A stretch of DNA of 64,000 nt from Arcobacter cloacae. Lineage in GTDB: Bacteria; Campylobacterota; Campylobacteria; Campylobacterales; Arcobacteraceae. The translations under genes were made by a program, and so were the position numbers. Numbering within the stretch: position 1 is the first letter of the stretch; each line of letters starts with the position of its first letter. Below are positions 28,375-31,270 of this stretch, in pieces. A model generated the notes under the pieces. It ran no database searches, was not told the DNA's origin, and saw only the letters and a program-made list of their open reading frames with translations. The stretch is from NCBI RefSeq assembly GCF_013201935.1, contig NZ_CP053833.1, positions 1,116,001-1,180,000 of the forward strand, read 5' to 3'.

Positions 28375-29769
28375 TCAATTTGTAATGAAAAGTTTTTCTA
28401 AAAAATTATTTGCGATTTTTAGATGATTTTCTAGCTTTTCTTTGGGCATTTTATTTAGAAGTGCAATTTGCATTTTCATTCGTGGATTTTTGTCAAATTT
28501 AAAAGAATACTTATATAAAAATCTCCAATAAAGTGCATCTATAATCTTGCACCACTCTTCTTTTTTATCATAATCACTCATCTTTAAAAGATAGTTAGAA
28601 CTAGCAATATAAGGTTTTGTAGTGATACTTCCACCATCACTAAAACCACTCATTCCATAAACATTTCCAACCATCACCCAATCGTAAGCATCGATGTAAT
28701 TTTTCATAAAAAACTCATAAACCTCATTTGGTTTGATTTCAAGTAATAAAAAGATATTTCCTAAAATCATAAGTCTTTCAATATGGTGATTATAAGCTGT
28801 AAGATTTAGTTTTAAAATAGTGTCATCAAGGATTTTTATGCCACTTTTAGCTTCTAAAATCTTTTTTGGCATAGAGTTTGTAAACTCAAAAAAGTTTGAG
28901 TTTCGTAAGAGTATTCCATCATCTTCATAAACTCGAAGCATAAACTCACGCCAACCTATGATTTGTCGTATGAAACCTTCTTTTGCATTGTAAGGAGCAT
29001 CAAAATTTACTATTTTTTCTATTAACTCATGTAAATCAAGTAAACCAATATTTAAACTACTTGAAATATTTGAATGAAATAAAAAGTTTTGATTTATATC
29101 TTTTGTAATTGCATCTTGAAAAGAGCCAAAATTCTCAAATTTCTCTTTTAAAAAGTAGTCTAGTTGTAAAGAAGCTTCATCAAAAGTTGTAGGATAATAA
29201 AAGTTCTCACAAACTCCAACACTTTTAAATTTTTTACAGTAAATCAAAGCCTCTTTTACAAACTCATTTTCAAAAGCTAAAGTAGGGGGAATTTTTATCT
29301 CCTTTGGAAGTTTTTTTCTATTATCCTCATCAAAACTGTATTTATCAAAAAGAGGTTTTCCATTAAGCATGAAAATATTCAACTCTTTTCTTCTATTTAT
29401 ATAAAACTTGTGCAAAAACTTGTTTTTATCTTTTGGGTTTATAAAGTTTGGATTTTTGATTGTTGTGATGTTTGAAAAGTTTTTATAAACCTTTTTTTCC
29501 AAATAATTATCAAAAAGTTCATAAACAAAAATCTCTTCATTTTTATAAATTTCAAGATAACTCTCATCTTCAAAATACTCAACTAAAATATTATTTTGTT
29601 TCAAATAACTCTCATAAAACTTCATACTAGCTCTATGTAAAACAAGTTTTTGAATATGAAAATCATATTGGCTAAAAAACAGAGGTTCTTCTATTAAAAG
29701 AACTTTTTTATTTACAAAGTTTGATAGGTTTTTAAATAATTGGTTTGGGTAAAGGATAAATGTTTTCAT
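28375..29769 (-). CDS. Photolyase/cryptochrome-like protein of the PhrB (FeS-BCP) family, lacking cluster cysteines
   Basis: 464 residues. The N-terminal Rossmann domain (about 1-130) has the start ILYPNQLF, and the C-terminal helical FAD domain carries RQIIGWREFMLRVY (about 267-280), VGNVYGMSGFSDGG, ASSNYLLKMSDY and DALYWRFLYKY...NPRM, all typical of PhrB-type bacterial cryptochromes and (6-4) photolyases. That family normally has four C-terminal cysteines binding a 4Fe-4S cluster. This protein has only three Cys in total, two of them near 177-185, and just one (in EEWCKIID) in the cluster region, so the cluster is almost surely absent. Shorter than the ~500-residue norm. Confidence 0.87.
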   Translation of the reverse strand: MKTFILYPNQLFKNLSNFVNKKVLLIEEPLFFSQYDFHIQKLVLHRASMKFYESYLKQNNILVEYFEDESYLEIYKNEEIFVYELFDNYLEKKVYKNFSNITTIKNPNFINPKDKNKFLHKFYINRRKELNIFMLNGKPLFDKYSFDEDNRKKLPKEIKIPPTLAFENEFVKEALIYCKKFKSVGVCENFYYPTTFDEASLQLDYFLKEKFENFGSFQDAITKDINQNFLFHSNISSSLNIGLLDLHELIEKIVNFDAPYNAKEGFIRQIIGWREFMLRVYEDDGILLRNSNFFEFTNSMPKKILEAKSGIKILDDTILKLNLTAYNHHIERLMILGNIFLLLEIKPNEVYEFFMKNYIDAYDWVMVGNVYGMSGFSDGGSITTKPYIASSNYLLKMSDYDKKEEWCKIIDALYWRFLYKYSFKFDKNPRMKMQIALLNKMPKEKLENHLKIANNFLEKLFITN

Positions 29770-29916
29770 AAAAATAGTTTATTAGATTTGAAGTTTATTT
29801 TGTACAAATTGTTTGTTAATTGATGAATTTTAATAATGTAATTTTCTAAATTATATAGATATAATTTTTTTATTAAGTTATTTCAAGAGAAAAGAAATAA
29901 ATAAAGTAAAGTTTAT

Positions 29917-29943
29917 GCATTCCCAAGCTTGAGCTTGGGAACG
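29917..29943 (+). repeat. REP palindrome 1
   Basis: 27-bp element starting GCATTCCCAAGCT and ending AGCTTGGGAACG. TTCCCAAGCT (29920-29929) and AGCTTGGGAA (29932-29941) pair perfectly; the ends (GCA versus CG) do not, giving REP-type polarity. The central two bases are TG. It is in the same orientation as the copy at 31210 and opposite to that at 30607, and it lies 26 bases before the lipoprotein gene. Confidence 0.8.
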
Positions 29944-29969
29944 ATGAAAATGCAATAAAAGAGGTAAAG

Positions 29970-30557
29970 ATGAAAATAAAATATATAACACTTGCAATAC
30001 TTGCAATGTTTGGTTTTAGCGGATGTAACGAAGAATATGCAAAAGTACCGTTTAGTGTACCTGTAGATTTTTCTAACAAAGGCACGGTTTATGAGACCAA
30101 CTTTCAAGCACCTTGGAATATTTGGGGGTCGTGGGTGAAGTTTGCCTTAGTGGCTCGTTATGAGCGAGATATTGAACTCACAGATGAGCAAAGAAGCATT
30201 TTCTATGCTATTGGTAGTGGAAAGAGAGATAATATTCCAATACCAAAAGAAGAAAATAAATACTTCAAATTCAAAGTTACTCTTACTCCACTTGGTTGGG
30301 CTAGTAATAATGTGATAATTTTGACTGGTCATTATTATGACTCTAAGGTTATTAGGCATGAGTTTAAAGATGGTGAAAAAATAGAGTTTGTAGTATCAGT
30401 GCCTTTATATGGATGGGGAACAGCAAAAAATATCATGGCGGCGGATTTACAAAGACTACGAAACTATCATATACGGGTAGAGAGCTTGGAAGATATAGAA
30501 CTTCCAAAAGATTTAATTCTTGAATTTGGAATAAATAGAAATAGCACAAAACGTTAA
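29970..30557 (+). CDS. Lipoprotein, DUF5625-like, with atypical codon usage
   Basis: 195 residues. A signal peptide with lipobox FSGC (about Cys19) makes it a lipoprotein. The mature part is beta-rich, with many Trp/Tyr/Phe, and resembles the DUF5625 family; I hold that assignment loosely. Codon use differs from the neighbours: Arg is CGT, CGA and CGG as well as AGA, and G/C content is visibly higher. The gene lies between REP palindromes 1 and 2, on the plus strand inside a minus-strand gene set, which suggests acquisition with the REP/transposase unit. AGAGGTAAAG precedes the ATG. No function known. Confidence 0.65.
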   Translation: MKIKYITLAILAMFGFSGCNEEYAKVPFSVPVDFSNKGTVYETNFQAPWNIWGSWVKFALVARYERDIELTDEQRSIFYAIGSGKRDNIPIPKEENKYFKFKVTLTPLGWASNNVIILTGHYYDSKVIRHEFKDGEKIEFVVSVPLYGWGTAKNIMAADLQRLRNYHIRVESLEDIELPKDLILEFGINRNSTKR

Positions 30558-30582: not shown

Positions 30583-30639
30583 ATGGCAACAACATATTAC
30601 TTCTCTCGTTCCCAAGCTCCAGCTTGGGAATGCATATAA
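30583..30639 (+). pseudogene. Start of an interrupted gene reading into REP 2
   Basis: AAAAGGAAAAAACA followed by ATG at 30583 looks like a genuine gene start. The first eight codons give MATTYYFS. The frame then enters REP palindrome 2 at 30607 and stops at 30637-30639, right after the repeat, giving only 18 residues. The simplest reading is a downstream partner of the DUF5625-like gene whose body was replaced by the REP/RAYT unit. The original product is not recognisable. Confidence 0.45.
30607..30633 (-). repeat. REP palindrome 2 (inverted)
   Basis: 27-bp copy in opposite orientation to those at 29917 and 31210: CGTTCCCAAGCT ... AGCTTGGGAATGC on the plus strand. Read on the minus strand it is identical to the copy at 31210-31236. 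It lies 33 bases before the transposase gene, and together copies 2 and 3 bracket that gene as an inverted pair. Confidence 0.8.
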
Positions 30640-30666
30640 AAACCAAATAAAGTAAGACAAATAAAA

Positions 30667-31200
30667 ATGGGCAGAAGTAGATATAAAATATATGAACCAA
30701 CATATCCACATTTTATAACTTGTACTATTTTACATTGGATACCAATATTTACAAGAACTGAAACAACCAATATTATATTTGATAGTTTAAAATTTCTTCA
30801 AAAAGAAGATAATCTAAAAATATATGCTTATGTAATTCTTGAAAATCATCTCCATATAATTGTGTCAAGTGATGATGTTTCAAAAACAATTAAAAAATTT
30901 AAATCCTTTACCGCAAAAGAGATATTAAAATATCTTCAAAATAAAAATGTAAAAACTATTTTAGAACAATTGGCTTTTTATAAAAAAGCACATAAAACTC
31001 AAACAACTTATCAACTTTGGCAAGAAGGATACCAACCAAAACTTATAAAAGATGAAAAAATGATGATAGAAACTATAAACTATATTCATCAAAATCCAGT
31101 AAAAAGAGGATATGTTGATGTTGCAAAACATTGGAGATATTCAAGTGCAAGGGATTATGAAGATGAAAAAGGTTTGATAGATATTGAGAGATTGTTTTAG
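30667..31200 (+). CDS. REP-associated tyrosine transposase (RAYT, Y1/HUH family)
   Basis: 177 residues, full length for the family. The HUH motif is HLHIIV (about 62-67), and the catalytic-Tyr helix is ETINYIHQNPVKRGYV followed by WRYSSARDY (about 136-162), the standard RAYT/IS200-like end. RAYT proteins cut and join single-stranded DNA at REP hairpins and are tied to the spread of those repeats. It is bracketed by inverted REP copies at 30607 and 31210, and the stop is 9 bases before REP 3. Everything needed for activity appears intact. Confidence 0.9.
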   Translation: MGRSRYKIYEPTYPHFITCTILHWIPIFTRTETTNIIFDSLKFLQKEDNLKIYAYVILENHLHIIVSSDDVSKTIKKFKSFTAKEILKYLQNKNVKTILEQLAFYKKAHKTQTTYQLWQEGYQPKLIKDEKMMIETINYIHQNPVKRGYVDVAKHWRYSSARDYEDEKGLIDIERLF

Positions 31201-31209
31201 TATAAGTAT

Positions 31210-31236
31210 GCATTCCCAAGCTGGAGCTTGGGAACG
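31210..31236 (+). repeat. REP palindrome 3
   Basis: 27-bp copy starting GCATTCCCAAGCT and ending AGCTTGGGAACG with GG at the centre, 9 bases after the RAYT stop and 34 bases before the end of the convergent EAL gene. As a hairpin it may also act as a terminator for both. Confidence 0.8.
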
Positions 31237-31270
31237 AAGAGGAATGCTTGTATTAAAGTAATAAATTTTC

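Follow-up and report, generated by a model that had tools for sequence, protein, structure and literature searches.

Known RAYT systems and related elements

RAYTs have been described as domesticated, vertically inherited genes whose own mobility has not been seen (PMC2817692, PMC8266576, PMC8049555); Nunvar 2010 reported RAYTs without changes of chromosomal location (PMC2817692), and Corneloup 2021 found RAYT mobility to be without evidence (PMC8266576). In the REPtrons of E. coli and the gammaproteobacteria (PMC2817692, PMC8266576, 4er8) a single-copy Y1 HUH gene lies between two inverted hairpins, as it does at the locus analysed here, which is part of a 64,000-nucleotide stretch of Arcobacter cloacae DNA (the window). 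Both systems have a mismatch near the stem and a RAYT that co-evolves with its palindrome. They differ in the hairpin head, which is GTAG/GTGG in REPtrons and (G)TATGCA here, and in that here the palindromes are undispersed in their own genome and the block occupies different sites in relatives. In published REPs of five subclasses the foot bears GT[AG]G (PMC6006769).

Several other elements resemble the locus in part. The TIRtrons of Di Nocera 2013 (PMC3733652) have a RAYT-like gene (TIRYT) between inverted repeats that are not of the GTAG type and are present in few copies, as here; their TIRs are described as long and with other motifs, whereas ours are short single hairpins, and the two families may overlap. 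The TnpA-Y1 genes of subclass 2.6, mainly from Bacteroidetes, and of class 3, from Planctomycetes, Acidobacteria and Proteobacteria, are likewise Y1 HUH genes with hairpins devoid of GT[AG]G, but their structures, as set apart by the published descriptions, are weaker or CnGA-footed, unlike those reported here (Quentin 2018, PMC6006769). IS200/IS605 elements (IS608, ISDra2) share with the RAYT unit the HUH-Tyr fold, hairpins at both ends and differing sites; unlike them, the RAYT unit is mostly single copy per genome and has at its two ends one hairpin in opposite orientations, an arrangement that REPtrons share. REPINs (Bertels and Rainey 2011, PMC3116915) are non-autonomous pairs of inverted palindromes with a short spacer, much like doublets of a related genome, G020, which differ from REPINs in their few copies and in combining two stem types (AACG and AAGCT). 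REP or RAYT-like elements were already noted in Epsilonproteobacteria (PMC6006769, PMC3733652).

Our analysis favours reading positions 30606 to 31237 of the window as an intact, low-copy, IS-like REP-RAYT unit which probably moved as a block by single-stranded DNA hairpin chemistry, and which belongs to a widespread RAYT family with no GTAG head on its hairpins. The unit represents a variant of the known RAYT kind in a genome without dispersed REPs.

The RAYT gene and its flanking palindromes

The gene at 30667-31200 (+ strand, 177 aa) is, judging from its sequence and modelled fold, a RAYT (TnpA-REP, a Y1 HUH transposase). As the initial annotation had proposed, the HUH motif (H61-L-H63, 30847-30855) and the catalytic Tyr139 (31081-31083) are intact, and H61, H63 and Y139 are invariant in an alignment of 28 members. 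The protein scores 104 bits against NCBIfam NF047646 (REP_Tyr_transpos; REP-associated tyrosine transposase; cutoff 80) and 28.6 against Pfam Y1_Tnp PF01797 (cutoff 23), and falls below the cutoff of the IS200 transposase model (18.9 against 55 bits). The sole PDB sequence match with E < 0.01 was 4er8, in which the E. coli RAYT is in complex with a REP hairpin; it was also the best structural match of the predicted fold, followed by the ISDra2 and IS608 transposases, in a model of moderate confidence made from 28 relatives (mean pLDDT 74). No other Y1 transposase was found in the genome, and this RAYT is nearly missing from plasmids (8/72,556) and phages (1/50,697).

The gene is bracketed by two palindromes, P2 (30606-30636, - strand), which forms the upstream end of the RAYT unit and is the point where homology with the relative G029 starts, and P3 (31207-31237, + strand), which forms its downstream end. 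P3 copies P2 exactly in inverted orientation, and the common repeat TATGCATTCCCAAGCTGGAGCTTGGGAACGA measures 31 nt and not 27 as first annotated. The suspected third copy near 29917 is real too: P1 (29914-29944, + strand; TATGCATTCCCAAGCTTGAGCTTGGGAACGA) differs from P2 and P3 in one loop base, is identical at the same locus of the closest relative, G002, and probably marks where an upstream unit, since lost, once ended. Exact matches to TCCCAAGCTNNAGCTTGGGA occur three times in the window (29921-29940, 30610-30629 and 31214-31233) and not at all in dinucleotide-shuffled sequence; TTCCCAAGCTNNAGCTTGGGAA is present three times in the window as well. A gapped palindrome pattern with a 7-nt spacer had no match, because in reality 2 nt separate the two 9-nt arms. 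In P2 and P3 the heads (TATGCA) point to the RAYT and the tails (CGAG) point away from it. As single-stranded DNA, P1 to P3 fold into hairpins of -9.1 to -9.6 kcal/mol (z -4.2 to -5.8 against shuffles) with an A•C mismatch on the TATGCA strand, the opposite strand having a G-T wobble in its place. The RAYT locus gave no match in Rfam.

Over 180 bp around P1 (window 29769-29950, compared with locus L123) the window equals G002 exactly, and the adjoining coding DNA is about 5% different. This identity suggests either recent exchange or strong constraint.

A conserved hairpin frame with an inner stem that follows the RAYT tree

Matching inverted palindromes flank most of about 100 RAYT relatives from Campylobacterota, Pseudomonadota and other phyla. 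One automatic search of 100 RAYT loci detected P2 in 72, P3 in 73 and both in 61, and the inner arm was equal at 48 of these 61 loci. The frame of 210 palindromes reads (G)TATGCA-TTCCCA-stem-TGGGAA-CGAG, with G (0.67), T (0.90), A (0.89), T (0.89) and G (0.90) at foot positions -7 to -3. GT[AG]G is missing at the hairpin foot, with (G)TATGCA there instead and CGAG as the tail, and GTATG might be the counterpart of the GT[AG]G head. A literature search with the palindrome sequence returned unrelated texts only.

Stem positions 7-9 are variable, mostly in complementary fashion, and 30 distinct palindromes gave 33 double compensatory cells against 7.6 when shuffled (0/500 shuffles). Beyond the constant A•C mismatch, the next pair was C:G, A:T or G:C in 205 of the 210 palindromes; since this outer pair is complementary although it played no part in choosing them, selection appears to act on a hairpin that has a mismatch close to its foot. 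On the RAYT tree the inner stem requires 25 changes, compared with a mean of 34.4 for shuffled labels, and 19 compared with 25.5 when only Campylobacterota are considered, in both cases with 0/500 shuffles as low. Thus the inner stem follows the RAYT tree, and palindrome and RAYT co-evolve. Campylobacterota stand on one side of this tree and mostly Pseudomonadota on the other, so that this sample gives no indication that transfer between the two sides took place recently.

Ordinary terminators or other host signals that lie beside the RAYT by chance would account for perfect hairpins near gene ends, such as those about 5-20 bp from a presumed pgi stop codon in six genomes of the genus. This explanation is scarcely credible for a family with asymmetric conserved flanks, whose inverted pairs match in the inner stem and co-evolve with the RAYT, and whose three members in this genome all lie at this one locus. 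We rejected termination as the sole explanation because of these flanks and because the window's hairpins have no T run next to them; an additional terminator role is possible.

Copy number and distribution

P1 to P3 are all the palindromes of the 2.81-Mb genome and lie within 1.3 kb, for which p is ~7e-7 if three points fall at random in a 2.8-Mb genome. The genome-wide counts are pattern searches: allowing up to two mismatches returned P1 to P3 and one asymmetric, chance-like match, and the frame ATTCCCA-N-TGGGAAYGA, with the inner stem free, returned exactly P1 to P3. Nothing is therefore dispersed. From the REPtron of the initial annotation, the RAYT bracketed by inverted REP-like hairpins stands, and the REP family in its own genome and the GTAG head do not.

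One genome per species was searched among the relatives. Within the genus, the palindrome (at most one mismatch) occurs in 10 of 31 genomes and an intact RAYT, patchily, in 2; as 8 of the 10 palindrome-bearing genomes are without RAYT, the expected restriction to RAYT genomes was not found. Among the 397 phylum members searched, the RAYT occurs in 26 genomes, a family palindrome in 53 and both in 17, an association with an odds ratio of 17.6 (P = 1.4e-10, uncorrected for kinship), and the median number of palindrome copies is 3 with RAYT and 0 without. The initial annotation had set its proposal against two outcomes, an absence of further copies and palindromes without RAYT in relatives. Taken literally both were observed, yet this standard was too strict, because palindrome and RAYT are strongly associated phylum-wide and RAYT remnants lie at palindromes in genomes that have no intact gene. 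A scan of named genomes yielded 118 RAYT relatives, of which the best 80 were kept (55-79% identity); palindromes surround the gene in most of them. Twenty genomes reached via RAYT relatives had 0 to 110 copies of the frame pattern; some reached 50-110, and several had only the two palindromes flanking the RAYT.

These numbers could be those of a conventional REPtron, with a domesticated, vertically kept and immobile RAYT, hairpins that are REPs able to spread, and a low copy number that reflects recent arrival or decay. The single-copy RAYT, its near absence from plasmids and phages, the 50-110 palindromes in other genomes of the family and the marine gammaproteobacterial REPtrons with REPs clustered near the gene, read as recent arrivals (PMC2817692, PMC8266576), all agree with it. 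We nevertheless consider it unlikely, given the patchy occurrence (2/31 genomes), the hairpins without GTAG head and the block at differing chromosomal places in close relatives, where homology stops at the hairpins.

In addition, the six palindromes near gene ends mentioned above (L127, L128, L131, L133, L134 and L135) have on their other side mostly a differing small ORF, in several cases in the direction of a second gene; we take the two genes to be pgi and guaA. At L198 (relative G314, near 423-2911), a gene weakly matching a Tle1-type phospholipase domain of type VI secretion and some small lipoprotein-like ORFs have a palindrome downstream of them.

The block at different sites in relatives

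At a different locus, adjoining a LysR-type gene, the relative G029 carries a unit that shares 94% identity with the window's. Homology between the two starts and stops at the palindromes; the native DNA past the LysR gene is kept in relatives, from which G029 diverges about 8 bases outside P3. Two Sulfuricurvum assemblies (L034/L037) have only the unit in common, at 90% DNA identity and with no further homologous ORF within about 3 kb on either side, and L079/L097 and L061/L092 are likewise unit-only pairs (80-85%). Other pairs have flanks in common, which matches the prediction of vertical descent. Since the unit lies at differing sites in relatives, comparison of the loci shows an apparent relocation of the whole P-RAYT-P unit as a block, at low frequency.

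A near-identical second unit within one genome was not found: the paralogues in G401, G259, G288 and G233 have diverged, so that recent transposition was not caught in the act, and the moved blocks could also be explained by transfer between lineages with recombination. We recovered no clean two-sided empty site. On the P2 side the rest of the truncated gene is gone in the window and in G029, so the hairpins have also been sites of deletion or recombination. A serious rival to block transposition is that the RAYT unit travels as a passenger of larger, horizontally exchanged islands, in the window a type-I-secretion/RTX cluster, with the hairpins as breakpoints of deletion or recombination and without any transposition. 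The loss of the rest of the cut gene, the fragments of the same cluster type that both units abut, and an exchange at the same locus between this genome and G002, with breakpoints at P1 and P3, are what such islands would leave. We give this explanation real weight but doubt it, because in L034/L037 and the other pairs the unit alone is common over about 3 kb per side and because in G029 native sequence joins the P3 tail precisely.

The search for a target sequence revealed no common target. TTAC, seen in the window, G029 and G072, was dropped as a candidate, being present in 5 of 25 P2 tails where 3.3 were expected and thus not enriched.

Neighbouring genes and remnants

The unit of the window lies among the remains of a type-I-secretion/RTX cluster, with a photolyase-like gene on one side and an EAL gene on the other. 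Just a short intergenic stretch separates these two genes in the relative G010, and the block of the window is therefore an insertion relative to G010. At the same place G002 has identical P1 and P3 with a different gene between them, a P2 of another stem type and, in place of an intact RAYT, two scraps of it; homology at P3 with both G029 and G002 stops a few bases past the palindrome. The neighbouring gene, which is context outside the minimal unit (29970-30557, + strand), encodes a lipoprotein-like protein of 195 aa with no family in Pfam or NCBIfam. Its homologues (50-57% identity) occur in three other genomes of the family, and the G072 homologue is flanked by a type-I-secretion ABC transporter gene and by a giant RTX gene starting MATTYY. 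A six-codon scrap of such an RTX gene start (MATTYY, 30583-30600, + strand), cut by the RAYT unit at P2, shares its start and ribosome-binding context with the longer G072 gene (L192). The G029 unit cuts the start of another gene from a type-I-secretion/RTX-type cluster; the scrap before that gene resembles, by sequence, the end of an HlyD-type gene, and gave no match in Pfam.

Remnants of the RAYT were found at palindromes in genomes without the intact gene. G020 has doublets of one AACG-type and one AAGCT-type palindrome, with spacers from the RAYT 3' end, which alternate with small ORFs. The simplest account of these REPIN-like doublets is that they are units with an internal deletion, and the comparison shows paired palindromes and remnants as the apparent products of internal deletion. 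The two G020 arrays (L129 2620-4160 and L130 2240-3800) contain doublets of about 100 bp and ORFs that are unrelated, membrane or immunity-like.

A further reading would make the hairpins exchange points for gene cassettes, shuffled by the RAYT via single-stranded hairpins somewhat as in integron attC. It derives from the immunity-like small genes between successive units (P1-gene-P2 of the window, the G020 doublets and an array in G072) and from the swapped contents between identical P1 and P3 in the window and G002. Such a role is possible but thinly supported, and we give it a slim chance.

Possible mechanism and meaning

If the unit moves as a block, each of its inverted palindromes would fold on one strand of single-stranded DNA, forming a hairpin of 9 bp whose foot has the A•C mismatch and one more pair. 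If it acts like E. coli TnpA-REP and the IS200/IS605 enzymes, the RAYT would recognise the hairpin and its flanks, TATGCA on the 5' side and CGAG on the 3' side; Tyr139 might cut near the tails, within about 10 bases of the stem, and the cut ends would be joined elsewhere, at a new site. In its own genome the unit has seeded no dispersed REPs.

A block found at unrelated sites, with 2 to 110 palindrome copies per genome, would connect insertion sequences with REP families as a living intermediate, and such a family makes it possible to test how REPs originate in small genomes with few copies. For the question of how the enzyme picks its cutting site, the head without GTAG provides a contrast. 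The main interest of the locus, which is moderate, is its bearing on whether REPtrons move as units.

Finally, the RTX scrap begins an 18-codon leader (MATTYYFSRSQAPAWECI, window 30583-30636) that runs through the P2 hairpin and ends before the RAYT, and an ATG lies just upstream of P2 in G029 and L037 as well. A leader through P2 might affect RAYT expression, or it might be due to chance.
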